From: an uncultured Lachnospiraceae bacterium
GTDB lineage: Bacteria; Bacillota; Clostridia; Lachnospirales; Lachnospiraceae
DNA length: 64,000 nt
Assembly: GCA_947382355.1 (NCBI GenBank)
Contig: CANCYR010000004.1
Coordinates: forward strand, 1-64,000
Direction: 5' to 3'
Both the position numbers and the translations under genes were made by a program. The notes beneath the pieces were generated by a model, which saw nothing but the letters and a program-made list of their open reading frames with translations, was not told the origin of the DNA and made no database searches. This document shows, in pieces, positions 9,625-59,695 of this stretch (its first letter is position 1; the number at the start of each line of letters is the position of its first letter).

Positions 9625-9630
9625 GCAGCA

Positions 9631-9840: not shown

Positions 9841-9874
9841 TGTTATGTGAACAAAAAAACAAACCTATAAAATA

Positions 9875-26992: not shown

Positions 26993-27089
26993 GGAAATAC
27001 ACAGCGGTAAAAGAGATAAAAAAGGAAAAAAGATAACAAGCGATAATCTTTAAAGAACAAAAGAAGATATGTTTTGGAGGGGAAAACCT

Positions 27090-30000
27090 ATGAGAAAGAC
27101 TATAAAAAGATTAATGGCAGCCTGCCTGATAATATGTCTGCTGCCCTTTGCGGATTACTCCACAGCGCTTGCGGCTGGAAATGCCGGAGTGGTAAACACC
27201 GGAGCAGGAAATAATGAAACTGGAAATGCCGGAGCGGTAAACTCTGGAGTGGAAAATAGCGAAGCGGGAAATATTGAAGTTGGAAATACCGGAATTGAAG
27301 AGAAAAACGGCAGCAACAATGGAGAAGAAGCAGGCAGTCATAGCGGGACAGAGGAAAACGGCGGCAATCAGGAAGCGGCAGAACCTGACGGAAATATGGC
27401 ACCAACAGAGGACAGCACTGACGATATATACATAGAACCGGCAGGCGCCGGCAGTACGGAGTCTTTCGCCTTATCGGAAAATAATACAGGAGACGATGGA
27501 CTTCTTCCGGAAGCAGGAAAAACTGACCGTACAGGAGAAAGTGCTGACTGTAATATGCAGATTCATGCTCAAATCCATAAAAAGGGATATGTTGAACTTT
27601 GCTGGCAGGAGTTTGAAGAAGGTGCTTCCGGTTATCGGATTTATCGAAATGAGCAGCTACTGGCAGAAACAGAAGAAACGGAATTTCAGGATAGAGAGCC
27701 GGAAAGGAATGCGGTTTATGCTTATAAGGTTGCCGTGCTGGATGAAGAGGGACAGGAAATTGTACAGGACTATAGTACACAAATAGAGATTCCGGATAAT
27801 TATCAGATGGACTATAATAGCTCGTTGATATTGAATGAAGACATGATAGTGTATGACCTGAAGGCTTCAGGAGAATTAGATTTAAATGGGCATAGTCTGA
27901 CGGTGCTCAATGCTGCAAATTTAAACGGCAGAATTTCCTTTCACGGAGGTTCCCTGTTAGTAAATCATGATGTACAGATAAACTGTTCCGGATTTGAAAT
28001 GACTGCAGAAGAGGACTATCTGTATGCAGGTGGAAACGTGTCATGGAATGCATGGTCATACGGTTATTACGATGGTAGGGTTATTAATCTGCAAAAGGGA
28101 ACTATGGAAATCAAAGGGGATTTTCTGGCAGGTGAAACGGATACTTTTTTGGCTTCCGGGGATTTCTGCACTATATTTAACGGAGAAGAAAAACAGACCA
28201 TTGAACTTTATAAAGGAGAAGCGGCTTTTGGAAGGGTAGAGCTGGCAAACAACAGTGAGGAAGGGGTATATGCCAGGGAGCCCTTTGTCTGCAGTGAATT
28301 CATTCAAAATGATACAAGGCTGGTAGTGGGAGCTGATGAGGTCACAAGCGGTTTTGAACTGGAAGAGGACATGGTGATGGAGGGGGACTTCTGCCTTGGA
28401 GGAGGCATATTGGATCTTGCAGGGCATACACTGACAATTCAGGGAAGCCTGATTCAGACCGGCGGAACGGTATTTGTAAACAGCGGAAGGCTTGTGATAG
28501 AAGGAGACTACCGAATCCAGTCCAGAATGGATAACGAAGATGAAAATACGTTAGAAGAATATCAGTATGGAAAAAGCGCCGGCATTCTGAATATGACCAT
28601 GGACGGAGATGAGGTGCTTGTAAAAGGAGGGTTTTATACCGATTCCAAAATGGACCATCAGGGAATGTTGGCAAAAGGAACTCTGGAAGTAAAAGGGGAT
28701 TTTTATGAGTATGCACAGTCCTCCTTTGGAAACTTTATTGCCACGGATGAGCATAAGGTAATTTTATCCGGAGAAGGAAAACAGACCGTAAGCTTTGGGA
28801 TAAACAGGGCTTCTGCATCAGGATTTTCCAATCTGGAGCTGCGGAATGCAAGTGAAGAGGGTATTTTATTTGTAAACCGTCCCTATGTGGCAGGAGAGTT
28901 AAACGGAAATGACACCCGGACGGAAGGAGAAGTATCCGTAGGAAGCAGAACTGTTTATAAGAATGGTTGTTATGGGGGCGATATTTATGTGATTGGCAAT
29001 TTCGCAGTGAGAGAACCCTTGACGATTGGCGGTAATGTAACTGTTGCCAGCTATCTGTCTCTCTATGACCGTATGACGGTAGAGGGAAATGTAACGGTAC
29101 AGAAAAATTGTCTTACCTTTATGGGCGGAGAACTGATTGTAAAACAAAACTTTTCCGTGCTGGGAGGAAGCGCAAATTATGGCATTAAGATGACAAATGA
29201 AACAGACAGACTTTCTGTTTCTGGTGATTTCTACTATGAAGCGGCAGGCTCCATGAGCAAAGCGGCAGGGACCATTGAGGTAAAGGGCAACGTGGAGATT
29301 GTAAAGGGTTTTATTGCGGAAGGCTCCCATGTGTTTTTGTTAAACGGCGATGGAAAACAGGAAGTGAGCATGAAGGAAGGAAATGCCTTTTATGAGCTTT
29401 GGGTGGAAAATTACAGTGAGGAAGGCGTCCATGTTTTAACGGATATTATTTTTGATTCCATAAAAGAAAACGGCTGCAACATTACCTATTTTTCCGGAAT
29501 GCTTTCTAAGGATGAAACGGTAGACGGAGATTATGAGCTGACCGGGGAAAACTTTAATTTCAATGGGAAGACATTGACTGTCAATGGGGACTATATCCAG
29601 AGACAGGGGATTTTGAAGCTGAATAAAGGAAAGCTGGTGGTAGAAGGGGATTTTATTCTTTCAGAAGGAACCGTTCAGATGACAGGCGGAAGCATAATTG
29701 TAAAAGGAAGCCTGATTCAGGAAGGCGGAACCATACAGGTGGAAAACGGAAGCCTGACAATAGAAGGGGATTACCGGCTGCAAAAGCGGAGCGGGCAGGA
29801 AGCTGATTATAGCTATGAAGCCTGCAGCGGAATTTTACAGATGACAAAGGAAGGAGGCAGGGTTTTGGTAAAGGGCGATTTCCATACTGCTTCCACAGCG
29901 GACCATACCGATTGTTTTACTAATGGAATTTTGGAAATAAAGGGAAATCTGGTTCAGGAAACAGGAGGAAATGAATGCAATCTGGTATTCAGTATGGAAC

Positions 30001-33000
30001 ATCTGCTTTTGTTAAGCGGCACGGAGAAGCAGACTGTCAGCTTTTTACCGGTAAAATTGGAGAAAGATAAATTATATTACCAGAGAATGTCCTGTATTGC
30101 TAATTTGGAGGTAACTAATAAGGGCAAAGAAGGAATTGAATTTATTAATGAACCGGTTGTAAATGGAAGAATAAATGATAACCACAATAAAATCACCGGT
30201 GCCATATCTATTATAAATATAAACTGGAACAAAGCTATATTTGAGGATGGATATTACGGGGGAGATATAGCTCTTTGGTGTGGAAGGCTGGGTTATGGTT
30301 ATAAGGATGAAATACATATTGCAGGTGACGTACGAGCTTATTCAGGTCTTTCTGCCTCAAATAATCTGGAAATCGAAGGGGATTGTGTGGTTATAGAGGG
30401 AAGTATGAATCCGGATAAATATTGCATAAGCGTTGGGGGAAATCTGACTATAAAAAATACCTCTTATGGATTGTATTTTTCTAATAGCGGAAAGGTAGTC
30501 GTAGAGGGGAATCTGGATTATCAGCCGGACAAATATAGAGAAGGATATTTGGAAAGCGGCACTCTTGAAGTAAAAGGAGATGCTCTTATTAGCGGCAGTT
30601 TCCGCACATCCGGAACTCAGGTAATATTCAGCGGAGAAAAAAAGCAGATGATTTATGCCGGAGCTGCTTTATTTAAAAGACTGGTACTTTCCAACAACAG
30701 TGAAGAAGGGGTTATTGCCAATATGCTGTTGAATTATTCTGATTTGGAAACAAATGGATGCCGAATTGTGTACGGCATGGAAAATGATTTGGAATATGCC
30801 GTTACGGGCTTTACCCTGCAGGAGGATTATACTGCAAAAGGCGACCTATATCTTATGGATGGGAATATGGATTTAAACGGGCATACGCTGACAGTGGAAG
30901 GCGACCTGATTCAGGCTTCAGGTGATATGAACATAAACGGGGGCGCCCTGATTGTAAAAGGCAGCTATCGCATGCAATACCGTACCGGATTAGAGGGAAG
31001 CTATAAATACGGAAGCGGTAAAGGCGGGCTGGTCATGACCGGGGAAAAAGACAGGGTGCTTGTTTGCGGAGATTTTTATTGCAGTACCTTAAAAAATATG
31101 AGTGGTCTTTTAACGAACGGGACAATGGAAGTGCGGGGTGACTTCCGGCAAAATGCAGCAGAAAATTTTATTGCCACGGAAAATCATACGGTTGTTTTAG
31201 GAAGAAAACTGGATGAAAACGGGAGCGCTTTTGTGCAGACGGTTTTTTTTGAAAGAAGTCCCGGAATTACCAGATTCCATAAGGTGGTCTTGACAAAACT
31301 AAATGAAACGGGATATGTATTTAAAAATGACATATCCTCTATTAGTGATGAAGTTCTTTATGATTATTGTGACGAAGAGCCGCCCAGTGCAGTGACGAAG
31401 ATTTCTGTAACAGGGGCAGAATGCAGTTCTATTACGATAGCATACGAGGGGGCTGTGGATAATGAAAGGATTCTGGGTTATGAGATTTACAGGGATGGCG
31501 TGAAGATTGGGGAAACAAGCGCCAAAAGCTTTAAGGATTCAGGATTAAAAGCAGATAAGGAATATACATACCAGGTATTTGCTTTTGACGGCTATCGGAA
31601 TGTTGCAAAGACTTCACCGGAATGTGCAGGAAGGACTTTGGTGGATTTGGAAGCTCCTGAGGCAGTAAGGGGATTAAAGATAAAGTCTGTCACCGGTTCT
31701 TCTGTAACTATTGTATGGGGAAGAAGTTCGGACAATGTAGAAGTAACAGGATATAAAGTATATGGCGATGGGAAGGAATTAGCTACGGTTAACGGTGAGT
31801 GTATTTATAAGGATATGGGACTTTCGGAAGGTAAAGTACATACATATCAGGTAACTGCCATAGATGAAAGTGGAAATGAATCGGAAAAAAGTGAAGAAGT
31901 AAAAGCTTCGGCAAAAATGCCGGAATTTCTTCATATACTCCCAAATAATGACAATAGTATTGGCGGAGAGAATGTTACACTTTCTGCATTTTACGGAGGC
32001 GAATACAAGACGGGTGATTGCAGCCTTGATATAGAATACTATGACCAGGAAAAAAAGGAATGGACTTCTATTGTGCAGGGACTTTCAGGAGATTCTTATA
32101 TAAGTCCCCAGTGCTATTGCCTATATTATAAGTGGAATATTTCAGAATTTCCAGAGCAAAAGCTGAAGGTGCGTTTTATGCTGTCTGATGTGGACGGAAA
32201 CACAACAACAAAAGAACAGTCTTATTATATAGACAGGACACCTCCCAAAAAACCGGTTGGTGTGATTGCAAAGGATCAGGAGGGGACGATTGCTGTTTCA
32301 TGGAATCCGTCCAGTGATAAGGATTGCAGTTATTATAATGTATTCCGAATCGAACGTAAGACTGGAGAATGTAAAAAGATAAAGGTCTTATTTGGAATTG
32401 ACAATAATTCTTGTATTGATAGTTCTGTAGTGGCAGGAAAACAGTATGAATATTATGTACAGGCTGTGGACAATTTTGGACAGGAAAGTATCTTATCGGA
32501 TTCAGCGTTTGTATTTGTCAGCGAAGATACTCAGGCTCCGGAACTGCAAAGCATACAGGTTCCCCAAAAAGTAAATAAAATTGCAAATATTAATGTGTAT
32601 GCCAGAGACAATCGAAAGATTTCGGAAATTGCCCTGTATTATAAAGCAGAGAGGGAGGAAACATATCGCTTATTAGAGAAAAAAAGCAGTGCAAGGACTA
32701 TTCAAAGGTTTGAATGGGACACTACAAAAGAAAAAGACGGAAACTATATATTAAAAGCAGTTGCGGTGGATGAAGCCGGAAACTGTTCTGATTCGCTTAG
32801 TGTAAGGACGGTCCGGTGTCAGGTAGACAATACAGGAGTATCACAGGTAAAGATTACCGGCAGTACTGTTACAAGTACAGAGGTGCAGCTTACATGGAGT
32901 GATTTAAAAGAGAAGGACAGAGCAGGTTTTCAGGTAGTGCGTATAGAGGGAGAAAAAAGAATTCCAATGACTTATGAAAAGGCATTAGGAGCAAACCTGA

Positions 33001-36000
33001 AATATTTAAAACCAAATACGGAATACACATTTGTAGTTATCGGCTATGATGACGTCGGAAACCCGGGACCGGAGTCAGAGCCATATAAGGTTACGACTCA
33101 GTCCGATACCATTTCGCCGGTGATATCATATCTGTATGCAAGATGTAGCGGAAAAAAACATAATATTCAATTAAGCTATAGGGTTATAGATAATGATGCT
33201 GTTGATAAAATTATGTTCAGCTATTCAAGAGATAACATCAATTATGAGGAAATCTGCACTGTGTCGTCAGATGGCAACAGAGTGTGTGAAGATAATGTAT
33301 ATTGGGACATTACAGATGTGGAGGAAGGGAATGTTTATGTAAAAGTATCCGCATATGACCAGAGTGGAAATATGACGGAAACAAGTGAAAATGATGCAGT
33401 CCAGTTCCCTATTGACAAAACAGCTCCCAATCCAGTCAAGAACCTTCATATCCTTGACGATAACAGTACTTTCACATGGGATAAAGCAGAAGAGGAAGAT
33501 TTTAAAGAATATAAGATTTATCGTTCTTATTTAAATGCAGATATGTTTCGGTATATAGGAAAAACCAGTACAAATTCCTTCTGCGATAGAACCGCTGCAG
33601 AGAGTCAGACCTATTATTATAAGGTTACGGCAGTAGATTTATATGATAATGAAAGCGATGAATCAGATATTATCATATGGACCAGCGTAGCAGACAGAAT
33701 AGCTCCAAAAGTCACCGGATTTTCCATTGGAAATGGTAAAACAGCAGGGAGAAATCCGGAGTTCCATGTTATTTCAACAGACAATTTTGCCCTGTCTGCC
33801 ATTAGTATGGAATATAGAAAAAAAGGTACGGACAGCTGGCTGCCTATCGGGGAATACCAAGTGGAAGGAGATGTGGCAGAGCTTAAGGAAACATGGAGTA
33901 CAGAAGGACTTGTAAGCGGAACATATGAAATACGTATTGCCGCAATTGACAAGAGGGAAAACTATAGTGATTATTATACGGTGGATTTTTATCTGGATGT
34001 GGATGCACCAAAGACTCCTGCTATAACTGCAGAAGAAATAGAAGGAAAAGTCCATATTTCGTTTTCTGAAAATACGGAAGAAGATTTTACCGGATATAAA
34101 CTGTATAAAAAGGAAAATAGCAGTGACCGTTATGAATGCATTATGGAAGGAACGGAAAATGAATATTCTGATGAGGAAGTGGCATTAAGTACAAAATATC
34201 TATATTATGTGGAAGCATATGATCAAACAGGAAATTATTCCAGTTCAGAAGAAGCGGTTATTGTTACAGACGATGTTGATAAACAAGCGCCTAAGGTAAC
34301 CCTTGGGAGTTTTGAACCAATAGAGGGGAGAGAGATGGAATTTTTCCCGGAAACAGAGTGGGATAATGTAGAAATCGTAAAATATATCTGGGATTTTGGG
34401 GATGGTGAAACTTCTACAGCCAGAAATCCCAGACATACATTTAGAGAGCCCGGGAAATATACAATCACCCTGAGCGTGGAAGATGAAGCAGGAAACAGGA
34501 AAATGGCACAATCCCAGGTGGAAGTGGCTCCAAAAGGCACAAAAGGGGTACATAAGCTCTTTGTAAGGGATGAAAACGATCAGCCTGTGAAAAATGCAGC
34601 AGTCATTTTATATTTATCCGATGATAATCAGCCCATGTATTATACCGATGATTCAGGAACCGTTTCCATCACAGGTGAAAAAGGCATTTTTCAGGTGGCT
34701 GTTAATGCGGAGGGTTTTTCCATCCAGGAGGGAACTGTGACCATAGACTCAGAAAGGGATACGGAAAGCAGGATAATATTAAAAAACGGTCTTCCGATTA
34801 TGGGAAATATTGAGACGAAAAAGCTGTCTTTGGAAGAATTAAAGGATTTAGGCGTAGACTTTACAGCCACAGATAATTTCTCCAGATATACATTTTATGG
34901 TGAGCTAACATTTGTCAGACAAGGAGTGAAAACGGAAACTATAAGGATTTCTGCCGGAAGCCAGGGAAGCAGCGGAAGCGGCGGAAATTATGGAGGAGGT
35001 TGCGGCTTTTCCAATGGGAGAGGCGGTACTGGCACCATTACACAATTGAGAGATTCTGAAGAGCCTGTTTTTGCCTATTTTTATATGGAACCAACAACGG
35101 TTTCCTGGCTAAAGGATATGTATCAGGTGCAGTTTGCCATTTTAAATATGGCGGACGAAAAATATCCAATTGAAAATGCCAAGGCTGTTCTTGAACTGCC
35201 TAAAGGGCTTTCTCTGGCAAAATTAAAGACAGCACAAACCCTGTCAAAGGAAATAGGAACCGTAGGCGGTAATCAGGAAAGAGCCACAAGCTGGGTAGTA
35301 AAGGTAGATGCAGCAGGAGAGCATACTGTAAACGTAAACTTTCAGGGAATCCTGCAGCCATTTGGGACAAAAGTAAAACAGACATTTTCTGCAACAGGAC
35401 GATATACCTCCACAAACGGAAAGGGACTGCACCTCTATATTTATCCGGAAAAGACTGCCCATAATCTGGAAACATACTATGTTCAATACCAGCTGGTAAA
35501 TGAGGCGGACATAGACTGCAATTATGTGACCGTTAATTTTGGAAAATATGAAACTCCGGAAAAAGTGGAAAAAGTATACAGCTATTTGAACGGGGAATTG
35601 CACAATGTGATCGAAAAAAGAAGCGGCATCCGATATTATATGCCCTCAAAGGGTGTGGACGGACAGCTGCCAATCCTCAGTAAAGGAGATTCCCTTACGG
35701 TGGAGACGCTGAAGCCGGGACAGAGTATTTACGGAACCTATGCAAGAATCTTTCAGGGATTGGGAAAGCCGGAAGAAACTTATTATAAGCTATGCAGCGT
35801 CATGGTAAAGGAAATCAAATCAGAAACAAATGCAAACCTGAAGGTAACTGTCCAGCCTAAAGAAGGACATCTGGAAAAAAGCCGGCTGTTCGTTGATATC
35901 AATTTAGGCAGTTATACAAATGATCTGATCTCCGCCCTGAAAAATGTACTTAACACCTTGTCTGAAAGCTTCACACCAAAAAAATGCAGCGGAGATCCGG

Positions 36001-39000
36001 TAAATATTATGACAGGCGGATTTGAAAGCTCCCAGACCATTATGCAGGCGGCAGGCATAAACAAGCTTGACTTTACCATTTCCTATGATTCCCGTAATAC
36101 TGAGGAAAAAGGGGATATGGGCTATGGCTGGTATCATAATTATGAATCCAGAATTGAAGAATGCGGAAACGGCATACGTGTCTACTGGAATCCAAACAGC
36201 TATGCCACCTTTGCAAATAAAAATGCCATGAATTCCATTGTGGAAGGAATCTATCAGGATGGCACCATGTGGCTTACCGATACCCTGTCTGAAAACAACG
36301 TGCCAAAGGAAGAGCAGAAGCAGACAAGGAATGCCGTATCGGAAAACAGTGTGTTGGAAAACAGTGTTTCAAAAAACAGCATTTCGGAAAAAGATATTTA
36401 TAGCTATTTTTCCGGGAATTTCGGACAGGACTATGAGCAGGATGAAAATATAATAAGCCGGGAAGGTTCGGACATAGGAATGGAGCAGATAGAGGAGGGG
36501 AAAAACACATATCTGCCTACAAGTGAAGGCATGAAAGGCTGCCGTGTGTTAAAAACGGAGGAAGGCTACTGCATGTATGCTGCGGGAGGAGAATGCTTCC
36601 GCTATGACACGGAGGGAAACCTTGCCAGCGTGGAAAACCAAAAGGGACAGAAAATTACCTTTACAAGAAGCGGCAGCTGCATGGTAATCGCAGACGAAGG
36701 CACGGACAAGAGCATTACGGCATACTATGATGAAAACGGAAACATTACAACACTTCGTGATAACGGCGGAAATCAGGCAGTGTTTACTTATGATGGAAAC
36801 AATAACCTGACTGCCGTAAAAAGCAAGGGAGGAACCACTACTGCATACCAGTATGATGAAAACCACCGGATTCTGTCCGGAAAAGACACGGATGGAAACC
36901 TGTTCGTGGAAAACACCTATGACGAGAAAGGAAGGGTGCTGACACAGGATGACGGGGACCAGACTACGGAGCTTATGGAGATTTCCTATGAGGATGATGA
37001 AGAAAGCGGAAGGACCACTATTTCCGTCAAAAACACCAATGGCGGAAGGGAAACGGTTGTGGCAAACATGTTCGGGGAAGGCCTGACCTATACGGATTCC
37101 CTTGGAGCCGTGACACAGTGGGAATATGACGCAGAGGGCAGGGTAACTGCCTTCCGGGAAGGAGACGGGAACAGCGGCAGGATTGCCTATGACGAAAACG
37201 GAAATATCATAAGCCAGACGGAATCGGGCGGAAAGACCACCGCCTATACCTATGACGAAAACAACCGGCTCTTGTCCCAGAACTGCAATGATGGCACCAG
37301 CCTGACCTATACCTATGGTGAAAATAACCAGCCGGTCTCCATCACTTCCGGAAACGGGGCAACAGTCCGTTACGAATACAATGAAAACGGGCAGGTTACA
37401 AAAGAAACCGTAGAAGGTCTTGGGGAGACTGCCTATGAGTATTCAGGAGGGTTAATAACACAGATAACAGACTCTAATGGAAACGTAAGCAAATGCCTTT
37501 ACGACTCCATAGGCAATGTAGTACAATGTATTAACGGGAAGGGCATCGTCACTGACTATGAAATCGCAACAAACGGAAAGGTGTTAAAGGAGACCGTTAC
37601 CCTTGCGGATGGAAGCAAAGCAGTCACATCCTATGCCTATGACGCTTATGGAAATCAGACAGGGAAGACGGATGCCAACGGCAATACCACTGCATATACC
37701 TATGACAGAAATGACCGGCTTGTAAAAGAAACCCGTGCAGACGGCAGCGCCATTATTTATGAGCGGGATGTGGACGGCAACATCACAAAGATTACCTATC
37801 CCGACGGAATGACCACCATAGAGGCAGCTTATGACACAGCAGGGAACCTGCTGACATTAAAGGATGCTTTGAAATCCACCATGGTACAGAATTTTAACAG
37901 CGGAAGCCAGCTTATGGGTACGGCACTGGCAAACGGTGGACAGATTACTTACAGCTATTATGACAACGGACTTTTGAAAAGCGAGACGGATGCCATGGGC
38001 AATACCACTGCCTATACCTATGACGGTGCGGGAAGAGTAACCGGAATTACCGACAAAATGGGCAATACCACATCTTATGGCTATGACAGCGCAGGGAATG
38101 CGACTACTGTTATAAAACCGGAGGGGGAAACGGTTACTATTGCCTATAATCAATACCGCCAGGCAGTTTCCACCACGGATGCCAAAGGGAACATCATCCG
38201 GTATGAATACGATGGGATGGGTAACTGTGTCCGTATGACAGATGCTTTGGGACATGTAACGGAATATGAATACAATGGCAGCAATGAGATTGTAAAAGTT
38301 ATCCGGAAAGGTGAAAACGGACATGACGACATTATCCTTACCTATGCCTATGACCACCTTGGAAACGTCACATCCGTCACAGACGGAGAAGGAAATACTT
38401 ACCGGATGGACTATGACAAAGTGGGGAACCTGAAGGCTGTTTATGATGCCTATGGCACGGCAGTGGAAAGCTACAGCTATGACAAGGTCTACAACCAGAC
38501 CTCTGTAAAGGATGCCAAAGGAAATGAGACCGAAATGTCCTACGACTCCCTTGGCAACATGGTAAGCATGCTGAACAAGGCAACAGGCAGCGCCACTACC
38601 TATGCCTATGTGGGCGGGCAGCTCCTAAGCTCCTCCACGGATGCCCTGGGCGGAAAAGTGACTGCAGAACATGACGCCATGGGCAATATAAAGCGCTTCA
38701 CCAATCCAAACGGCGGCGTGACGGAATACACCTATGACCTGAACAAGCGGGTAACAGGAGAGAGCATAGGAAGCGAATATAAGCATACCTATGAATACAA
38801 TGCCAATGGACAGGTCATAAAGAAGACCAACTCCAGGGGACAGGTGACGGAATATACTTATGACAAAGCAGGAAGACTCACAAGCCTTACAGACCAGCTT
38901 GGAACCATCCGCTATGCTTATGATAAAAACGGAAATGTGCTGACTGTAGCGGATTCTCAGGGAACCATCACAAGGGAGTACGATGCCCTGAACAGGGTGA

Positions 39001-40583
39001 CTTCTTATACGGATGCCAGAGGAAATACTATCCGGTATGATTATGATGAGTTTGGGAACCTGACAGAGCTTACCTATCCAAACGGGGAAAAGGTAATTTA
39101 TACACATGATAAAAACGGAAATAGAAAGAATGCAACAGACTGGGAGGGCAGGACGACAGCCTATGAATATGACAGGAACTCCCGGCTGGTAAAAACCATC
39201 CGTCCAGACGGCACGGTGGAGACAAGGACATATGATAAGGCAGGACAGCTTTTAACCATTCTTGACAAGAAGGGAAGCCAGACAGTTAACAGTCAGGAAT
39301 ATGCCTATGACATAAGCGGGAATATTACGGAAGTGAAGGCTTCACAGAAAGGTGAAATGCAGGTAAGTGGTGATATTGCCAATACCAGTATGGAGTATGA
39401 CAAGACCAACCGCCTGATTAAGTACAACGGGAAGGAAGTGAAGTATGATAAGGACGGAAACATGGTATATGGTCCTCTTAACGGAGAGATGGCAGGCTTT
39501 GTCTATGACTGCCGTAACCGATTAGTGCAGGCAGGGACTACGAAGTATGAGTATGATGCGGAGGACAACCGGACGGCAGTTATCAAGAATGCAGGGACGA
39601 GAGAGGAAGTAAGGATAGAATATGTAGTGGATTCCGTGGAAGAGCTTAGCAGGGTGTTGATGGCGGTTGAAAAGAAGTCCGGGAGTAAAACTTCTGGAAA
39701 CAGCATGGAAAGCACAACTGACAACGGAATTACTGGAAGCATAACAGCAGGCACGACAGCAGGTACGACAGGCAATGAAGCATTCCAGACTACTTATTTC
39801 TACTATGGAAACGGACTGCTTGCACAGGAAAATGAAAAAGAAGGTTACCTGACCTATCATTTCAATAACGTGGGAAGCACTAATGCAGTAACGGATGAAA
39901 ATGGAGCGGTGAGGTATACATATGCTTATAATCCATACGGAGAGTTGACGAAAGGAAGCTATGGGCAGGTTATGTTCCTGTTTAATGGGCAGTATGGGGT
40001 TGCTTCAGATGATAACGGACTGTATTACATGCGTGCAAGGTATTATAATGTGTCCATTAAGCGGTTCATCAATCAGGATGTAGTGACTGGAAGCATAGCA
40101 GAAAGCCAGAGCCTGAACCGGTATGCGTATGTGGAAGGAAATCCGGTTAACTATTTTGATCCGTTTGGGTTGGAACCGTTGTTGACGGATGAATTGCATG
40201 AGTTTGCAAGTGGTTTGTCAGCAGCAGGTGCAGTGGCTGGTTTTCTTAATCCATCGGTCGGATTTTTTATAGGAGAAATTGCATTCTTTTTTGATACAGG
40301 AGTTTATATTAATGATATTTTTACTTCTAAGTTTGATGGTGATGTTATTAAGAAAGCGTTATCAAATACTGTATTTAATGGACAACTTTTTACTGTAGGT
40401 ACTATGGCATATTTGGGTAAGCTTGGAGACGTGAGTAAAATTATAGGGGATATATCTTCAATAATAACTATAGGCACGACAAAAATGAATCTAGAGCAAA
40501 AAATAGTTAAAAAGATAATAGAAAAAGTTAAAGAATATTTAGATGAAAAAAAATCAAAGGAAAAAGGAGACATAAATGACTAA
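27090..40583 (+). CDS. Giant secreted RHS-repeat polymorphic toxin
   Basis: A 4497-residue protein starting at ATG 27090 behind TTGGAGGGG. Approximate domains: signal peptide (1-32); Asn/Gly-rich repeats (33-110); FN3-like (152-235); ~1190 residues of repeated short beta units of LxVxGDxxx type, probably a beta-helix (235-1420); several FN3/Ig-like domains (1430-2395); PKD (2424-2477); carboxypeptidase-regulatory-like (2481-2563); a Gly/Ser segment; DUF6531 (about 2967-3053); about 1000 residues of YD/RHS repeats (3150-4130); Ser/Thr linker; RHS core (about 4231-4361) ending in NYFDPFGL; and a 136-residue variable tip. The plan resembles WapA-type RHS toxins, in which the RHS shell encloses the tip. 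Candidate immunity gene A1 overlaps its 3' end by 8 bases. Confidence 0.88.
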   Translation: MRKTIKRLMAACLIICLLPFADYSTALAAGNAGVVNTGAGNNETGNAGAVNSGVENSEAGNIEVGNTGIEEKNGSNNGEEAGSHSGTEENGGNQEAAEPDGNMAPTEDSTDDIYIEPAGAGSTESFALSENNTGDDGLLPEAGKTDRTGESADCNMQIHAQIHKKGYVELCWQEFEEGASGYRIYRNEQLLAETEETEFQDREPERNAVYAYKVAVLDEEGQEIVQDYSTQIEIPDNYQMDYNSSLILNEDMIVYDLKASGELDLNGHSLTVLNAANLNGRISFHGGSLLVNHDVQINCSGFEMTAEEDYLYAGGNVSWNAWSYGYYDGRVINLQKGTMEIKGDFLAGETDTFLASGDFCTIFNGEEKQTIELYKGEAAFGRVELANNSEEGVYAREPFVCSEFIQNDTRLVVGADEVTSGFELEEDMVMEGDFCLGGGILDLAGHTLTIQGSLIQTGGTVFVNSGRLVIEGDYRIQSRMDNEDENTLEEYQYGKSAGILNMTMDGDEVLVKGGFYTDSKMDHQGMLAKGTLEVKGDFYEYAQSSFGNFIATDEHKVILSGEGKQTVSFGINRASASGFSNLELRNASEEGILFVNRPYVAGELNGNDTRTEGEVSVGSRTVYKNGCYGGDIYVIGNFAVREPLTIGGNVTVASYLSLYDRMTVEGNVTVQKNCLTFMGGELIVKQNFSVLGGSANYGIKMTNETDRLSVSGDFYYEAAGSMSKAAGTIEVKGNVEIVKGFIAEGSHVFLLNGDGKQEVSMKEGNAFYELWVENYSEEGVHVLTDIIFDSIKENGCNITYFSGMLSKDETVDGDYELTGENFNFNGKTLTVNGDYIQRQGILKLNKGKLVVEGDFILSEGTVQMTGGSIIVKGSLIQEGGTIQVENGSLTIEGDYRLQKRSGQEADYSYEACSGILQMTKEGGRVLVKGDFHTASTADHTDCFTNGILEIKGNLVQETGGNECNLVFSMEHLLLLSGTEKQTVSFLPVKLEKDKLYYQRMSCIANLEVTNKGKEGIEFINEPVVNGRINDNHNKITGAISIININWNKAIFEDGYYGGDIALWCGRLGYGYKDEIHIAGDVRAYSGLSASNNLEIEGDCVVIEGSMNPDKYCISVGGNLTIKNTSYGLYFSNSGKVVVEGNLDYQPDKYREGYLESGTLEVKGDALISGSFRTSGTQVIFSGEKKQMIYAGAALFKRLVLSNNSEEGVIANMLLNYSDLETNGCRIVYGMENDLEYAVTGFTLQEDYTAKGDLYLMDGNMDLNGHTLTVEGDLIQASGDMNINGGALIVKGSYRMQYRTGLEGSYKYGSGKGGLVMTGEKDRVLVCGDFYCSTLKNMSGLLTNGTMEVRGDFRQNAAENFIATENHTVVLGRKLDENGSAFVQTVFFERSPGITRFHKVVLTKLNETGYVFKNDISSISDEVLYDYCDEEPPSAVTKISVTGAECSSITIAYEGAVDNERILGYEIYRDGVKIGETSAKSFKDSGLKADKEYTYQVFAFDGYRNVAKTSPECAGRTLVDLEAPEAVRGLKIKSVTGSSVTIVWGRSSDNVEVTGYKVYGDGKELATVNGECIYKDMGLSEGKVHTYQVTAIDESGNESEKSEEVKASAKMPEFLHILPNNDNSIGGENVTLSAFYGGEYKTGDCSLDIEYYDQEKKEWTSIVQGLSGDSYISPQCYCLYYKWNISEFPEQKLKVRFMLSDVDGNTTTKEQSYYIDRTPPKKPVGVIAKDQEGTIAVSWNPSSDKDCSYYNVFRIERKTGECKKIKVLFGIDNNSCIDSSVVAGKQYEYYVQAVDNFGQESILSDSAFVFVSEDTQAPELQSIQVPQKVNKIANINVYARDNRKISEIALYYKAEREETYRLLEKKSSARTIQRFEWDTTKEKDGNYILKAVAVDEAGNCSDSLSVRTVRCQVDNTGVSQVKITGSTVTSTEVQLTWSDLKEKDRAGFQVVRIEGEKRIPMTYEKALGANLKYLKPNTEYTFVVIGYDDVGNPGPESEPYKVTTQSDTISPVISYLYARCSGKKHNIQLSYRVIDNDAVDKIMFSYSRDNINYEEICTVSSDGNRVCEDNVYWDITDVEEGNVYVKVSAYDQSGNMTETSENDAVQFPIDKTAPNPVKNLHILDDNSTFTWDKAEEEDFKEYKIYRSYLNADMFRYIGKTSTNSFCDRTAAESQTYYYKVTAVDLYDNESDESDIIIWTSVADRIAPKVTGFSIGNGKTAGRNPEFHVISTDNFALSAISMEYRKKGTDSWLPIGEYQVEGDVAELKETWSTEGLVSGTYEIRIAAIDKRENYSDYYTVDFYLDVDAPKTPAITAEEIEGKVHISFSENTEEDFTGYKLYKKENSSDRYECIMEGTENEYSDEEVALSTKYLYYVEAYDQTGNYSSSEEAVIVTDDVDKQAPKVTLGSFEPIEGREMEFFPETEWDNVEIVKYIWDFGDGETSTARNPRHTFREPGKYTITLSVEDEAGNRKMAQSQVEVAPKGTKGVHKLFVRDENDQPVKNAAVILYLSDDNQPMYYTDDSGTVSITGEKGIFQVAVNAEGFSIQEGTVTIDSERDTESRIILKNGLPIMGNIETKKLSLEELKDLGVDFTATDNFSRYTFYGELTFVRQGVKTETIRISAGSQGSSGSGGNYGGGCGFSNGRGGTGTITQLRDSEEPVFAYFYMEPTTVSWLKDMYQVQFAILNMADEKYPIENAKAVLELPKGLSLAKLKTAQTLSKEIGTVGGNQERATSWVVKVDAAGEHTVNVNFQGILQPFGTKVKQTFSATGRYTSTNGKGLHLYIYPEKTAHNLETYYVQYQLVNEADIDCNYVTVNFGKYETPEKVEKVYSYLNGELHNVIEKRSGIRYYMPSKGVDGQLPILSKGDSLTVETLKPGQSIYGTYARIFQGLGKPEETYYKLCSVMVKEIKSETNANLKVTVQPKEGHLEKSRLFVDINLGSYTNDLISALKNVLNTLSESFTPKKCSGDPVNIMTGGFESSQTIMQAAGINKLDFTISYDSRNTEEKGDMGYGWYHNYESRIEECGNGIRVYWNPNSYATFANKNAMNSIVEGIYQDGTMWLTDTLSENNVPKEEQKQTRNAVSENSVLENSVSKNSISEKDIYSYFSGNFGQDYEQDENIISREGSDIGMEQIEEGKNTYLPTSEGMKGCRVLKTEEGYCMYAAGGECFRYDTEGNLASVENQKGQKITFTRSGSCMVIADEGTDKSITAYYDENGNITTLRDNGGNQAVFTYDGNNNLTAVKSKGGTTTAYQYDENHRILSGKDTDGNLFVENTYDEKGRVLTQDDGDQTTELMEISYEDDEESGRTTISVKNTNGGRETVVANMFGEGLTYTDSLGAVTQWEYDAEGRVTAFREGDGNSGRIAYDENGNIISQTESGGKTTAYTYDENNRLLSQNCNDGTSLTYTYGENNQPVSITSGNGATVRYEYNENGQVTKETVEGLGETAYEYSGGLITQITDSNGNVSKCLYDSIGNVVQCINGKGIVTDYEIATNGKVLKETVTLADGSKAVTSYAYDAYGNQTGKTDANGNTTAYTYDRNDRLVKETRADGSAIIYERDVDGNITKITYPDGMTTIEAAYDTAGNLLTLKDALKSTMVQNFNSGSQLMGTALANGGQITYSYYDNGLLKSETDAMGNTTAYTYDGAGRVTGITDKMGNTTSYGYDSAGNATTVIKPEGETVTIAYNQYRQAVSTTDAKGNIIRYEYDGMGNCVRMTDALGHVTEYEYNGSNEIVKVIRKGENGHDDIILTYAYDHLGNVTSVTDGEGNTYRMDYDKVGNLKAVYDAYGTAVESYSYDKVYNQTSVKDAKGNETEMSYDSLGNMVSMLNKATGSATTYAYVGGQLLSSSTDALGGKVTAEHDAMGNIKRFTNPNGGVTEYTYDLNKRVTGESIGSEYKHTYEYNANGQVIKKTNSRGQVTEYTYDKAGRLTSLTDQLGTIRYAYDKNGNVLTVADSQGTITREYDALNRVTSYTDARGNTIRYDYDEFGNLTELTYPNGEKVIYTHDKNGNRKNATDWEGRTTAYEYDRNSRLVKTIRPDGTVETRTYDKAGQLLTILDKKGSQTVNSQEYAYDISGNITEVKASQKGEMQVSGDIANTSMEYDKTNRLIKYNGKEVKYDKDGNMVYGPLNGEMAGFVYDCRNRLVQAGTTKYEYDAEDNRTAVIKNAGTREEVRIEYVVDSVEELSRVLMAVEKKSGSKTSGNSMESTTDNGITGSITAGTTAGTTGNEAFQTTYFYYGNGLLAQENEKEGYLTYHFNNVGSTNAVTDENGAVRYTYAYNPYGELTKGSYGQVMFLFNGQYGVASDDNGLYYMRARYYNVSIKRFINQDVVTGSIAESQSLNRYAYVEGNPVNYFDPFGLEPLLTDELHEFASGLSAAGAVAGFLNPSVGFFIGEIAFFFDTGVYINDIFTSKFDGDVIKKALSNTVFNGQLFTVGTMAYLGKLGDVSKIIGDISSIITIGTTKMNLEQKIVKKIIEKVKEYLDEKKSKEKGDIND
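37760..39664 (+). repeat. 1.9-kb duplicated block, copy within the full-length RHS gene
   Basis: This block reappears at 41548-43452 with a constant offset of 3788 bases. I see no difference by eye, and the translations in several frames on both strands are the same. Differences start sharply at 39665/43453. Upstream, homology continues but is diverged. Confidence 0.9.
40173..40583 (+). other. Variable C-terminal tip of the RHS protein (toxin candidate)
   Basis: The 136 residues after the PFGL end of the RHS core are unlike the rest of the protein. Two hydrophobic glycine-rich stretches (around SAAGAVAGFLNPSVGFFIGE and LFTVGTMAYLG) are followed by a Lys-rich helical end (IIEKVKEYLDEKKS). Base composition drops to AT-rich exactly here. 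No nuclease or deaminase motif is visible. A membrane-active or membrane-delivered toxin is an inference, supported by its partner being an integral membrane protein. Confidence 0.6.
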
Positions 40584-41130
40584 AGTATTATGGTTAATAT
40601 TATTAGTAATCATGCATTTTGCTGTATTAAGTTTTTTTGATGAGTATTTAGTTGCTAGGCATCTGCTGTTTCGTTGTAAAATAAAAGTTGCAAAAATTAT
40701 AGGTTTTGGAAAATCTAAACTATTTGATACAATGTACTTTTATACAATTATTAGTTATTGCGAGCAAAAACAAGGGAGTGTGGTAAAAATATCACGGAGC
40801 AAGGATGACGAAATAGGTAAGGAGATAATGGTAGCAGTTAAAGCGGATGGGAAATTAGCTGTAAGATATGAAAAAAATAATTGGTATGGCAAGTTATTTT
40901 ATAACTTGGAGGGAACTAGCCTTGGGAGTGGATTGGGTTTGAAAGGATATATATGTGCGTATGTATTTTTAAATAGTATAATGGCTTGTTCATGTATATT
41001 AGAACCTGAAGGGGCAATGAGATTATATCAAATATATCTATTAATTGTTATAATACATTATTTGCTAATGCCGCAAATAGTTGAAATTAGAAATTATTTA
41101 TACGAGAAGAATAAAGTTGAGGATATGTAG
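40576..41130 (+). CDS. Family A membrane protein A1, candidate immunity protein
   Basis: A 184-residue membrane protein with an N-terminal helix (about 3-22), a soluble central domain and two C-terminal helices (about 133-170). Its ATG lies 8 bases inside the RHS stop, so toxin tip and this gene are translationally coupled, as expected for a toxin-immunity pair. Motifs shared with A2-A5 are FFDEYLVARH, IGFGKSK, KISRSKDDE, VKADGKLAVRYEKNNWYG and IHYLLMPQIVEIRN. I do not recognise the family. The immunity role rests on position and paralogy only. Confidence 0.7.
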   Translation: MTKVLWLILLVIMHFAVLSFFDEYLVARHLLFRCKIKVAKIIGFGKSKLFDTMYFYTIISYCEQKQGSVVKISRSKDDEIGKEIMVAVKADGKLAVRYEKNNWYGKLFYNLEGTSLGSGLGLKGYICAYVFLNSIMACSCILEPEGAMRLYQIYLLIVIIHYLLMPQIVEIRNYLYEKNKVEDM

Positions 41131-41276: not shown

Positions 41277-43978
41277 TGTCCGTTATAAATATAACGAAAA
41301 CAGGCAGGTTACAAAAGAAAACGTGGAAGGCCTTGGGGAGACGGTTTACCCCATTTCAATGGGCTGCTTACACAGGTGACAGATTTCGATGGAAATGTAA
41401 GCAAATATGTTTATGGCTCAATAGAAAATATAGTATATTATATTGATAGGAAGGGCACCATCACCGACTATGAAATCGCACTAAATGGAAAAGTGTTGAA
41501 GGAGACCGTTACCCTTGCGAATGGAAGCAGGGCAGCGCCATTACCCATGAGCGGGATGTGGACGGCAACATCACAAAGATTACCTATCCCGACGGAATGA
41601 CCACCATAGAGGCAGCTTATGACACAGCAGGGAACCTGCTGACATTAAAGGATGCTTTGAAATCCACCATGGTACAGAATTTTAACAGCGGAAGCCAGCT
41701 TATGGGTACGGCACTGGCAAACGGTGGACAGATTACTTACAGCTATTATGACAACGGACTTTTGAAAAGCGAGACGGATGCCATGGGCAATACCACTGCC
41801 TATACCTATGACGGTGCGGGAAGAGTAACCGGAATTACCGACAAAATGGGCAATACCACATCTTATGGCTATGACAGCGCAGGGAATGCGACTACTGTTA
41901 TAAAACCGGAGGGGGAAACGGTTACTATTGCCTATAATCAATACCGCCAGGCAGTTTCCACCACGGATGCCAAAGGGAACATCATCCGGTATGAATACGA
42001 TGGGATGGGTAACTGTGTCCGTATGACAGATGCTTTGGGACATGTAACGGAATATGAATACAATGGCAGCAATGAGATTGTAAAAGTTATCCGGAAAGGT
42101 GAAAACGGACATGACGACATTATCCTTACCTATGCCTATGACCACCTTGGAAACGTCACATCCGTCACAGACGGAGAAGGAAATACTTACCGGATGGACT
42201 ATGACAAAGTGGGGAACCTGAAGGCTGTTTATGATGCCTATGGCACGGCAGTGGAAAGCTACAGCTATGACAAGGTCTACAACCAGACCTCTGTAAAGGA
42301 TGCCAAAGGAAATGAGACCGAAATGTCCTACGACTCCCTTGGCAACATGGTAAGCATGCTGAACAAGGCAACAGGCAGCGCCACTACCTATGCCTATGTG
42401 GGCGGGCAGCTCCTAAGCTCCTCCACGGATGCCCTGGGCGGAAAAGTGACTGCAGAACATGACGCCATGGGCAATATAAAGCGCTTCACCAATCCAAACG
42501 GCGGCGTGACGGAATACACCTATGACCTGAACAAGCGGGTAACAGGAGAGAGCATAGGAAGCGAATATAAGCATACCTATGAATACAATGCCAATGGACA
42601 GGTCATAAAGAAGACCAACTCCAGGGGACAGGTGACGGAATATACTTATGACAAAGCAGGAAGACTCACAAGCCTTACAGACCAGCTTGGAACCATCCGC
42701 TATGCTTATGATAAAAACGGAAATGTGCTGACTGTAGCGGATTCTCAGGGAACCATCACAAGGGAGTACGATGCCCTGAACAGGGTGACTTCTTATACGG
42801 ATGCCAGAGGAAATACTATCCGGTATGATTATGATGAGTTTGGGAACCTGACAGAGCTTACCTATCCAAACGGGGAAAAGGTAATTTATACACATGATAA
42901 AAACGGAAATAGAAAGAATGCAACAGACTGGGAGGGCAGGACGACAGCCTATGAATATGACAGGAACTCCCGGCTGGTAAAAACCATCCGTCCAGACGGC
43001 ACGGTGGAGACAAGGACATATGATAAGGCAGGACAGCTTTTAACCATTCTTGACAAGAAGGGAAGCCAGACAGTTAACAGTCAGGAATATGCCTATGACA
43101 TAAGCGGGAATATTACGGAAGTGAAGGCTTCACAGAAAGGTGAAATGCAGGTAAGTGGTGATATTGCCAATACCAGTATGGAGTATGACAAGACCAACCG
43201 CCTGATTAAGTACAACGGGAAGGAAGTGAAGTATGATAAGGACGGAAACATGGTATATGGTCCTCTTAACGGAGAGATGGCAGGCTTTGTCTATGACTGC
43301 CGTAACCGATTAGTGCAGGCAGGGACTACGAAGTATGAGTATGATGCGGAGGACAACCGGACGGCAGTTATCAAGAATGCAGGGACGAGAGAGGAAGTAA
43401 GGATAGAATATGTAGTGGATTCCGTGGAAGAGCTTAGCAGGGTGTTGATGGCAGTTGAGAGGAAGTCTGGGAGCGAAACTGTTGGAAGCAGCATGGAAAG
43501 CACAACTGACAACGGAATTACTGGAAGCATAACAGCAGGCTCGACAGCAAGTACGACAGGCAATGAAGCATTCCAGACTACTTATTTCTATTATGGGAAT
43601 GGACTGATTGCACAGGAAAATGAAAAAGAAGGTTATTTGACCTGTCATTTTAATAATGTAGGAAGCACCAATGCAGTAACGGATGAAAATGGTGTAGTGA
43701 AATATACATATGCTTACAATCCATATGGAGAATTAACAAAAGGAAGCTTCGGGCAGGTTATGTTCCTGTTCAATGGGCAGTATGGGGTTGCTTCGGATGA
43801 TAACGGGCTGTATTACATGCGGGCAAGGTATTATAATGTATCCATCAAGAGGTTCATTAATCAGGATGTAGTGACTGGAAGCATAGCAGAAAGCCAGAGC
43901 CTGAACCGATATGCGTATGGATCTGCTACATTTATTTTTTATGATAGGGTTTCATTTTATAACAATGAGTTATTATGA
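41277..43978 (+). pseudogene. Truncated second RHS 3' region lacking a toxin tip
   Basis: Homologous to 37365-40135 of the full-length gene. The first ~260 bases are diverged (about four in five bases alike) and lack any start. A 124-base deletion relative to the full-length gene then shifts the frame near 41536. From 41548 a long intact frame runs for ~800 codons through the RHS repeats and most of the core, ending LNRYAYG at the exact place where the full-length protein goes on to VEGNPVNYFDPFGL. After the junction it runs out of frame into family A gene A2. It has no signal peptide and is probably silent, acting as a donor of sequence for recombination. Confidence 0.85.
41548..43452 (+). 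repeat. 1.9-kb duplicated block, copy within the truncated RHS
   Basis: Second copy of 37760-39664, offset 3788 bases with no insertion or deletion and no visible substitution. Both edges are sharp: CCCATGAGC here against TTTATGAGC at the left edge, and a run of substitutions from 43453 at the right. Confidence 0.9.
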
Positions 43979-44471
43979 TGAATTTTTGGTTTCAAGGCAT
44001 CCTTTATTTTCCAGTAAAATAAAAATGGCAGAAATTATAGGGTTTGGAAAAAGTAAAAACTTTCATGGTGCAAGAGGTGCTGCGATAGGATATTATACAA
44101 AAATCAGCTATTATGAACAAGATAAAGAATATATGGCAAAAATATTTAGAAGTATGGATGATGAAGTAGGTAATAAAATAGCAGTGGCGGTTGAAGCAGA
44201 TGGCAAATTAGCAACTAGGTATAAAAAGTGTAATTGGTATGGTGAGGGATATGGAGCGAAAAGGGGAGGGGCGCCTGGATTGATAATGGACATGTGTATG
44301 TATGCGTTTATTCATATAATAACGGCTTGTTGGCTTGTCCTAAATTTTGAAGCTTCATGGAAAATATATTTTATATATATTCTGACTGTAATATTGCATT
44401 ATTTATTTTTACCACAAATAGTTAAAATAAGAAATCTTATATGGGAAAAAGAACAATTTAAAGATTTGTGA
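43911..44471 (+). CDS. Family A membrane protein A2, candidate orphan immunity protein
   Basis: A 186-residue paralogue of A1 with the same layout and motifs (YYDEFLVSRHPLF, IGFGKSK, KIFRSMDDE, VEADGKLATRYKKCNWYGE, LHYLFLPQIVKIRN). The apparent ATG at 43911 lies inside RHS core codons (the sequence for NRYAYG), in a different frame; ATG 43917 is an alternative. A deletion or recombination that fused the RHS core directly to the immunity gene removed the toxin tip. No independent promoter or good ribosome binding site is visible, so expression is uncertain. Confidence 0.65.
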   Translation: MRMDLLHLFFMIGFHFITMSYYDEFLVSRHPLFSSKIKMAEIIGFGKSKNFHGARGAAIGYYTKISYYEQDKEYMAKIFRSMDDEVGNKIAVAVEADGKLATRYKKCNWYGEGYGAKRGGAPGLIMDMCMYAFIHIITACWLVLNFEASWKIYFIYILTVILHYLFLPQIVKIRNLIWEKEQFKDL

Positions 44472-44534: not shown

Positions 44535-44786
44535 ATGGATGAACTGCAAGCTAATGGTGTGCTTATTTCCGCAAGCAACGAGCCAAGTGATTGTGTGCAA
44601 GCATTTGGTGATTGCCGCAAGGGTCAAATCCTCCGCCCCTTGGGGCATTTCAAGTTTGGTGCCGCACTGCTTGTGGCGGAGTATTTGATTTCAACCATGC
44701 AAAAGGACTGCTTGCATAGAAGAAAGGATGGGTATCTGACGTATCCTTTTAATAATGTAGGAATGACCAATGCAGGAACCGATTAA
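44535..44786 (+). pseudogene. Composite remnant ending in a degenerate RHS core
   Basis: An 83-codon open frame. Its first two thirds (QANGVLISASNEPSDCVQAF...) are GC-richer than the surroundings and of unknown origin. The last third (CLHRRKDGYLTYPFNNVGMT) is a degraded copy of the RHS-core segment KEGYLTYHFNNVGSTNAVTD, ending at a stop. It reads as scar tissue from an earlier RHS cassette rather than as a working gene. Confidence 0.55.
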
Positions 44787-44833
44787 AAAGGAGCAGAGAA
44801 GTATGTATTGATAAATAAAGGATGGGTAAAAAA

Positions 44834-45454
44834 ATGAATAGCTGGATTTGGGCAAGGGACAACGTAAGTAAGAGGACATTATTTGATTTTAGAAACGCAT
44901 TTGATGCAGGGGTAATATTGCTTTTAATCAATACTGTGGTTTTGATTTCTATGACTGGAAGATATATTTTTAATTTCATTTTGTTATTTTACATATATCC
45001 AATTATTAGTTACTGCTTTCTTATAAATAAGACTGTTAAGTTTAATGAATTGGTGGAATGTGGGAGACTTATTATATGTCAGATAGAAAAACAGTATACT
45101 TGTTATAAGGCAATGTACAGGTCAAAAAGGCGAACAATGTATTGTAGCTGGTTTGATGCGGAAAAAAATAAAACATTATTATTTCGGGCGGACAACATGC
45201 TTTACTATTTAAACGGCAAAAACAGAAGCGGAGGAAATCTTGATGAGATTTTGCATGTATATGTAATGTTTGACCCGAACAATCCAAAAAAGTATTATGT
45301 CTTTCATGATGAATTGATGATGGAATCAAGCACTTGCCTGGAAGGTGCTTCATCTTCAAGTTTATCAAAGTTATTGTTTGGTGCAGATATCATTCTGCTA
45401 ATTATTGTATGTGGGGTGATATGGATAGGTAAAAAGAATATAATATTTTTATGA
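44834..45454 (+). CDS. Family B membrane protein B1
   Basis: About 206 residues (start at ATG 44834; ATG 44822 is an alternative). It has two N-terminal hydrophobic helices (about 22-66), a central soluble domain with a CQIEKQYTCYK segment and a PNNPKKYYVFHDELM motif, and a C-terminal membrane helix (about 180-200). The central part resembles B2 at 49943 (VVVNPRNYHEYIVLFEDVLL). It lies directly after an RHS-core remnant, the same relation that A1 has to the RHS tip, so it may be an orphan immunity gene. I do not recognise the family. Confidence 0.6.
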   Translation: MNSWIWARDNVSKRTLFDFRNAFDAGVILLLINTVVLISMTGRYIFNFILLFYIYPIISYCFLINKTVKFNELVECGRLIICQIEKQYTCYKAMYRSKRRTMYCSWFDAEKNKTLLFRADNMLYYLNGKNRSGGNLDEILHVYVMFDPNNPKKYYVFHDELMMESSTCLEGASSSSLSKLLFGADIILLIIVCGVIWIGKKNIIFL

Positions 45455-46309: not shown

Positions 46310-46671
46310 ATGACTGCCACAAATGTTTGCTACAGGCAGGGACTACAAAGTATGATGCATCTACTATGGAAAGGGACTGCTTGCACAAGAAAATGAAAAA
46401 GAAGGCTCTCTGATGTATCATTAATGTAGGAAGCACCAATGCAGTAACGGATGAAAAGGGAGCAGTGAAGTATACATATGCCTATAATCCATACGGGGAG
46501 CTGACGAAAGGAAGCTATGGACAGGTCATGTTCCTGTTTAATGGACAGTACGTGAGTAAAAATGTCGGAAATATAAATTCAGGAATAATAATTGGAGTGA
46601 CAGTAGTTGATTGGATAAAAAAGAAAATTAAGGAATGTATTGATGAGAAAAAGAAGAAAATGAAGAGGTAA
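46310..46671 (+). pseudogene. RHS core remnant with a short tip remnant
   Basis: The first ~130 bases are a degraded RHS core, with frameshifts, corresponding to the CRNRLVQAG...YGNGLLAQENEKEG segment. From 46465 a 68-codon frame reads MKYTYAYNPYGELTKGSYGQ and ends abruptly at FNGQY. It then passes into VSKNVGNINSGIIIG and a Lys-rich end (IKECIDEKKKKMKR) that resembles the end of the full-length tip (KVKEYLDEKKSKEK). It is thus the collapsed 3' end of another RHS-toxin cassette. Confidence 0.7.
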
Positions 46672-46682
46672 TGTGGCTGGAT

Positions 46683-46847
46683 ATGAATGAAAAAATATTA
46701 CTATTAGGAATTATAGAGATGCATTTTTTAATAATAAGTTATTTTGACGAATTTTTAATTGCAAGGCATCCACTATTTCATTGTAAATTAAAAATGGCAA
46801 AAATGATAGGATTTGAAAAATGTATCATTATACAATGGTGCAGGTAA
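46683..46847 (+). pseudogene. Family A fragment A3 (N-terminal part)
   Basis: A 54-codon frame beginning MNEKILLLGIIEMHF and containing YFDEFLIARHPLFHCKLKMAK, clearly the N-terminus of family A. Homology stops after IGFEK and a stop codon follows. It directly follows the collapsed RHS tip at 46671, preserving the toxin-immunity order of the intact pair. Confidence 0.8.
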
Positions 46848-50736: not shown

Positions 50737-51261
50737 ATGAGTTTAAAAGCTATATTGACACTAACATTAATAGTATTTTATTATGCCATGCTCACATATT
50801 TTGAAGAATTCCTCACAGCCAGACATCCTTTCTTAAAAAAACATTTAAAAACAGGCATTATTCAGGAATTTGGCAGCTCCAGGATTTTTTATAGATCAGG
50901 GGCAATGAGAGAATTTTATACGATAGTCAAGTATCATGATAATGATAAAGAACATACCGTGAAAATATCCCGCAGTCTGGATGATTGTGTTGACGGGAAA
51001 ATTATTCTGGCAGTAGGAAAAAACAACACTGCTGTAAGATATGGAAAATGCAATTGGTATAATGAAGAAGACGGAGCCTCCTGTTCCGGGAAAACTATTT
51101 TAGCGCTTTTTGTATTTGTAATTATAATCTTTCACATTGTAATAATATGGGCTAATGAAATAAAGCAGGTATATTCCGTTTTTTTACCATTTATGATGAT
51201 ACATTACTTGTGCCTCCCGTTTATTATCAGGCTAAGAAATTCACTCTGGCAATTAAAATAA
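50737..51261 (+). CDS. Family A membrane protein A5
   Basis: A 174-residue, apparently intact family A member with an N-terminal helix (about 3-22), YFEEFLTARHPFL, YTIVKYHDNDKEHTVKISRS, VRYGKCNWYNEEDG, two C-terminal helices and IHYLCLPFIIRLRNSLW. An ACAATAGGAGAAAATC ribosome binding site precedes ATG 50737. It is the most diverged family A copy, and it closes the array. Confidence 0.7.
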   Translation: MSLKAILTLTLIVFYYAMLTYFEEFLTARHPFLKKHLKTGIIQEFGSSRIFYRSGAMREFYTIVKYHDNDKEHTVKISRSLDDCVDGKIILAVGKNNTAVRYGKCNWYNEEDGASCSGKTILALFVFVIIIFHIVIIWANEIKQVYSVFLPFMMIHYLCLPFIIRLRNSLWQLK

Positions 51262-59479: not shown

Positions 59480-59695
59480 CCGTTCAGTCCTCCGTTTTTC
59501 CATCCGGGAATCGGGAGCGGCTGCAGGCAGAAAATGATTTCTGAAGGAGCCCTTATAAAAACGCCAGCACTTAGCGAGGTTCTTTCGAGCTTAGTACTGC
59601 TGCGTTTTTATCAGAGCGGGAGCGTGGCGACGCAGAAACATTTTCTGCCTGCAGCCGCTTCCGATTCCTGAATGAAAAAACGGAGGACTGAACGG
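59480..59695. repeat. Long palindromic intergenic element, copy 2 (inverted)
   Basis: A 216-base element. The arms (59480-59536 and 59639-59695) are complementary at 53 of 57 positions. The core is the reverse complement of that of copy 1: GTTCTTTCGAGCTTAG at 59579-59594 corresponds to CTAAGCTCGAAAGAAC. The arms differ in sequence from those of copy 1 except for the innermost AAAATG, but share CTGCCTGCAGCCG with the partial copy at 1-69. It lies between ddh and the terminator at 59700. Confidence 0.85.

Follow-up and report, generated by a model that had tools for sequence, protein, structure and literature searches.

Organization of the RHS locus

The 64,000-nt window analysed here, i.e., the whole stretch of DNA from this Lachnospiraceae bacterium, carries a main RHS gene of 13.5 kb (4504 codons as called, with the ATG at 27090 probably being the true start), the core of which is followed by a toxin tip and by the putative immunity gene A1 (Table 1). 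Further downstream lies a second copy of the core, which ends in A2, a homologue of A1. The region 3' of A2 is an array of further small genes, interspersed with fragments of cores, tips and A-family genes.

Two of the small genes in the array (44822-45454 and 45661-46287) code for membrane proteins, lie between core remnants and are related to proteins encoded in these arrays in other genomes; they are possibly immunity genes of other tips. The window also contains two palindromic elements of approximately 215 bases each (9629-9842 and 59480-59695), which are 91% alike over 136 bases and possibly represent a small mobile repeat.

Table 1. Coordinates of RHS, tip and A-family features in the 64,000-nt window
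Feature	Position	Strand	Basis or remark
Main intact RHS gene	27069..40583	+	ORF list; RHS_repeat and DUF6531 matches
Core copy 1 (partner in the duplication)	37743..40131	+	Self-BLAST, 98.1% identity over 2389 bp
Segment absent from copy 2: core end VEGNPVNYFDPFGL and toxin tip	40132..40583	+	
Tip residues of the main RHS gene	40173..40580	+	
A1 Shine-Dalgarno site AAGGAGA, inside the final tip codons	40564..40570	+	Duplex -8.9 kcal/mol
A1, putative immunity gene of the intact tip	40576..41130	+	8-base overlap with the RHS stop
Left flank of the orphan module, older and diverged	41278..41529	+	78% to 37365-37617, self-BLAST
Core copy 2, orphan core without N-terminus	41531..43919	+	41547-43452 identical to copy 1
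Junction: final core-shared base / initial A2-derived base	43919..43920	.	
A2, immunity-type gene, A1 homologue	43911..44471	+	Candidate ATGs 43911 and 43917; no Shine-Dalgarno site
Stop codon of the truncated RHS frame, within A2	43976..43978	+	
Small core fragment, decayed	44719..44804	+	Self-BLAST
Decayed core fragment of another cassette, internal stops	46344..46551	+	
EPLLT-type tip C-terminal remnant, directly adjoining the core fragment	46552..46665	+	Residue match and reading frame
Broken A-family gene, AGAGG upstream	46683..46826	+	Closest DNA relative of A2: 79% over 115 bp
Another intact A-family gene, own ribosome-binding site	50737..51261	+	34-37% to A2

The junction between core and A2

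The identity of core copy 2 to copy 1 runs up to position 43919 (equivalent to 40131), and the very next base is A2 coding DNA in another reading frame. Beyond this point copy 1 continues TGGAAGGAAATCC..., and the orphan copy 2 continues GATCTGCTACAT... The intact copy proceeds with TGGAAGGAAATCCG (VEGNP...), and the truncated RHS frame reads ...SLNRYAYGSATFIFYDRVSFYNNELL*, ending 19 codons past LNRYAY. A first-pass annotation of this DNA had described an RHS core joined directly to A2 with the tip absent, and had placed the A2 start inside core codons. Both descriptions are borne out, since the two candidate ATGs of the 186-residue A2 frame lie within bases common to the intact core. A fused RHS-A2 reading frame was rejected, as the two frames are not in register and that of RHS terminates at 43978.

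In the intact locus, 452 bases separate the same point from the end of the RHS stop codon (444 bases from the A1 ATG), in line with the approximately 450 bases of core end and tip that had been estimated previously. This segment comprises the core end, the DPFGL motif and the 136-residue tip, and is followed by A1. The TIGR03696 core model is matched over positions 1-64 of 76 in copy 2 and along all 76 in the intact copy.

Within the duplicated core, 1906 bp are exactly identical (37759-39664 and 41547-43452), with a few differences at the left edge. The last 467 bp of the core copies differ at 43 positions (31 synonymous and 12 not; 9.2% divergence), and therefore, the junction is located in copy-specific sequence rather than where the exact repeat ends. 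Given a duplication of 2389 bp, the junction is not a chance match.

The two core copies thus share an exact tract of 1906 bp, the flanks of which differ by 9-22%. This mosaic structure points to an older module whose central part recently underwent exchange or conversion.

Intact cassettes and comparable losses within the genus

We compared 13 close core ends, counting copy 2, across six genomes of the genus. The motif VE(G/C)NPVxYx(D/E)PxGL is read through in all 12 other core ends, leaving copy 2 as the sole exception. In each of the four intact cassettes with an EPLLT tip (the main gene of the window, two on contig C2 of genome G002 and one in G003), the tip is followed by an A-family gene, which starts between 8 bases before the end of the tip frame and about 40 bases past the tip stop.

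The relic at 46344-46826 retains the order of the intact cassettes (core, C-terminal part of the tip, start of the A gene), and has lost the stretch from core position 165 of 210 to residue 110 of 160 of the tip query. It is a second internal tip loss within the array of the window. The order of this relic and the pairing of EPLLT tips with A genes in four of four cassettes suggest that the piece missing before A2 is likely an EPLLT tip. The relic sits after gene 45661, just as the A gene of genome G001 sits after the orthologue of that gene.

The closest full-length relatives of A2 are found in G001 and G002 (55-56%), and neither adjoins an RHS core end or a tip. The G001 gene abuts an RHS fragment derived from before the core, the G002 gene a different, unrelated upstream sequence. 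Both keep a common leader of approximately 37 bases that includes a Shine-Dalgarno site. The losses in G001 and G002 spared the ribosome-binding site, while the loss at A2 did not.

The A family was found in no other genus; it is present in five of the six genomes of this one, and a family-wide search recovered it in 2 of 299 genomes, both of this genus. An alignment-based scan of genome contigs yielded five loci, all in Lachnospiraceae or Robinsoniella MAGs, and a single-sequence scan of genome contigs for A2 relatives gave no match. Neither plasmids or phages carrying A2 relatives nor a relative combining the same A2 allele with an intact tip were found. In relatives, the A-family genes at two loci (L065, 9983 onward; L066, 8403 onward) encode an extra C-terminal portion of approximately 145 residues, which is absent from A1 and A2.

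Properties and classification of the tip and A proteins

The tip is predicted to be all-helical, at modest model confidence (68.4), and its first half is moderately hydrophobic. The A proteins are modeled (pLDDT 80.7) with a hydrophobic N-terminal helix, a beta domain and two hydrophobic C-terminal helices, and by hydropathy they possess the transmembrane segments of membrane-type immunity proteins. These features suggest that the tip may be membrane-acting and that the A protein may be a membrane immunity protein. Structure searches with A2 and the tip returned no match at E 0.001 (for the A protein, no significant PDB match), and searches of A1, A2 and the tip domain itself against Pfam and NCBIfam returned no family above the cut-off.

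The segment 41278-43919 matches 37365-40131, lies downstream of the main gene in the same orientation and lacks an N-terminus and start signals, as do orphan cassettes. Its core stops before VEGNPVNYFDPFGL, and the DPxGL boundary and subsequent toxin domain of such cassettes are absent. The module is thus best classified, judging from its sequence, as a derivative of an RHS orphan cassette rather than a complete one. A2 itself is 50% identical to A1, which adjoins the intact tip, and zero tip bases intervene between core and A2; by sequence criteria A2 qualifies as an orphan immunity gene, with a putative neutralising role.

The A2 start site and the missing Shine-Dalgarno sequence

In intact cassettes the Shine-Dalgarno sequence of the A-family gene lies inside the end of the tip or within approximately 40 bases after it. 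The A1 site overlaps the codons of the last tip residues (KEKGDIND), and in other family members the site is located just before the start, past the tip stop where a tip is present. The A2 start pairs with the 16S tail at -2.1 kcal/mol versus -5.8 to -12.5 kcal/mol for 10 of the 11 other A-family starts scored, by a simple duplex score that does not weigh spacing. The exception (G001b, -3.6 kcal/mol) was scored at a misplaced start, and AAAGGAG precedes its likely ATG. For 83% of the 96 ATGs inside the RHS core, the upstream stretch matches or exceeds that of the A2 start in pairing with the 16S tail.

The conserved [DEQ]E[FY] motif is preceded by 21-23 residues in family members and by 20 or 22 in A2, counted from the ATG at 43917 or 43911, respectively. 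By this count, the endpoint of a deletion would lie 0-3 codons from the original A2 start. An in-frame ATG is offered within three codons by 11% of core endpoints and within 20 codons by about 31%, and therefore, the fortunate start of A2 needs no special cause, and the in-core ATGs alone are no proof of a working arrangement.

The first-pass annotation had held that relatives in which A2 starts at a separate upstream site, with no RHS junction, would argue against a scar. Such relatives do exist in G001 and G002. Taken literally they count against the proposal, yet since the closest relatives of A2 start with a site of their own, the in-core start of A2 is derived, an accident of the scar, and the separate starts are consistent with the scar rather than a refutation of it.

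Constraint and expression of A2

A2 carries the invariant residues of the family, and compared with the same relative (G001), its dN of 0.34 and dS of 1.16 are similar to those of A1 (0.35 and 1.33), with dS near saturation. A2 has thus been a constrained gene; these values reflect a long history and have little bearing on the period after the deletion.

Between the main gene and A2, four terminators were found versus 3.8 expected, none of them convincing; as this does not exceed chance, read-through transcription into A2 is possible. A local promoter was also considered, and a scan just upstream of A2 yielded no more sites than shuffled sequences. The start region of A2 folds at -15.4 kcal/mol versus -8.8 kcal/mol for A1, with a z-score near zero, which indicates composition rather than a selected structure. 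Expression of A2 is probably low, and weak at best, unless read-through transcription and weak initiation suffice. As a counterpoint, a frame that is intact and constrained may indicate continued production of A2.

A possibility compatible with a deletion, which we consider doubtful, is that selection maintains A2 as a functional immunity gene, which is translated from the in-core ATGs and provides resistance to tip-bearing siblings or rivals. The intact 186-codon frame, a deletion endpoint so close to the expected start, a dN well under dS and the lack of a convincing terminator are in its favor, and orphan Rhs immunity proteins can protect (PMC3967940; PMC10539506). However, the Shine-Dalgarno sequence is lost, the start region folds more strongly than that of A1, the orphan core has neither a start nor a signal peptide, and the in-frame ATGs are expected by chance at 11-31% of endpoints.

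Origin of the junction

The deletion of a tip from a displaced RHS cassette is the best reading of the locus (probability roughly 75%), because 12 of 12 other core ends keep the motif and four of four EPLLT tips precede A genes; the event itself is reconstructed from paralogues. An illegitimate deletion of approximately 450 bases would have eliminated the terminal portion of the core domain, the tip, the A2 Shine-Dalgarno sequence and possibly the first 1-3 A2 codons. It would have fused the core to A2 at a point where the core by chance offers in-frame ATGs. A2 would thereby have been left, with its coding sequence intact, as the orphan immunity gene of a hydrophobic, probably membrane-acting tip. 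The earlier proposal of a toxin-deletion scar with retained immunity consequently stands in part: the intact core-tip-A cassettes and the comparable losses support the deletion, but only the coding sequence of A2 was kept and its Shine-Dalgarno sequence was lost. That the two closest full-length A2 relatives also lack an adjacent core end or tip is a counterpoint to a deletion, and a one-step fusion, whereby a core recombined straight onto a lone A2, is only partially separable from it.

Displacement by illegitimate recombination is an unlikely origin. Incoming core-bearing DNA would have paired with older core on the left and, through a chance join to the beginning of an immunity gene that was already there, would at the same time have displaced the old tip. 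While the mosaic core (78% left flank, 1906 bp exact, 467 bp 9.2% divergent) documents that recombination acted at the locus and such a model has been published (PMC5361080), under the published model a new effector-immunity module, not a bare core end, should contribute its 3' end to the join, and the 467 bp beside the junction look older than the exact 1.9-kb tract, indicating that the recent exchange did not create the junction. Least probable of all is a misjoin of two places in the repeated core by a short-read assembler: the draft genome does comprise 107 contigs and an exact repeat pair within 6 kb, but the junction lies 467 bp past the exact repeat amid 43 copy-specific differences, a path A-R-B-R-C through a direct repeat permits a single order, and the source genome holds no second A2 locus to supply the join.

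Relation to known systems and implications

In Salmonella and other Enterobacteriaceae, a main rhs gene and its immunity gene are followed by orphan rhs-CT/rhsI modules, i.e., immunity-linked core fragments without start or export signal (PMC3967940). The module described here resembles these in its long shared core, which permits recombination with the main gene. In contrast to the Salmonella modules, its orphan fragment is tip-less, such that recombination with the main gene would disarm rather than switch the toxin; moreover, the genus of the host is Gram-positive (Lachnospiraceae), and no Pfam family matches the immunity proteins.

The Rhs loci of Snodgrassella from the bee gut also harbour orphan immunity genes, which outlast the lost toxin, and core fragments without toxin domain (PMC5727410). 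An immunity gene persisting after toxin loss and toxin-less core fragments are thus common to both. In Snodgrassella, however, the lost toxins appear pseudogenised and two toxin-less Rhs genes have no adjacent immunity gene, whereas in the present locus the absence of the tip is clean and A2 directly adjoins the core. In V. cholerae, arrays of type VI secretion system (T6SS) immunity genes arise through effector displacement with retention of the old immunity gene (PMC5361080). The loss of an effector and the retention of its immunity gene are shared features, but the Lachnospiraceae locus is not a T6SS, and what adjoins the immunity gene is a bare core end rather than a new effector-immunity module. 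As in polyimmunity loci (PMC3482391), several immunity-like genes of the same orientation lie 3' of a toxin gene; yet those loci are free of interrupting toxin cassettes, and here core and tip remnants intervene, such that the array is not an uninterrupted tandem of immunity genes. For firmicute type VII secretion systems, recombination among immunity paralogues has been described (PMC9484751).

A2 is therefore an orphan immunity gene within an RHS array, a type of remnant described before, and the addition made here is a ribosome-binding site lost together with the tip. A role of the tip-less module as a disarming cassette is highly unlikely; recombination over the 1906 bp would swap tip and A1 for a bare core end and A2. 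If this were true, a lineage would lose its weapon in one step, and A2 would be translated behind a full-length RHS message from its in-core start.

The A2 junction provides a base-exact example of tip loss with a surviving immunity frame. Where the ribosome-binding site of an immunity gene resides in or beside the 3' end of the tip, deletion of the tip can silence the immunity gene despite an intact-looking frame. Counts of orphan immunity genes that ignore the loss of ribosome-binding sites would hence overstate protection.
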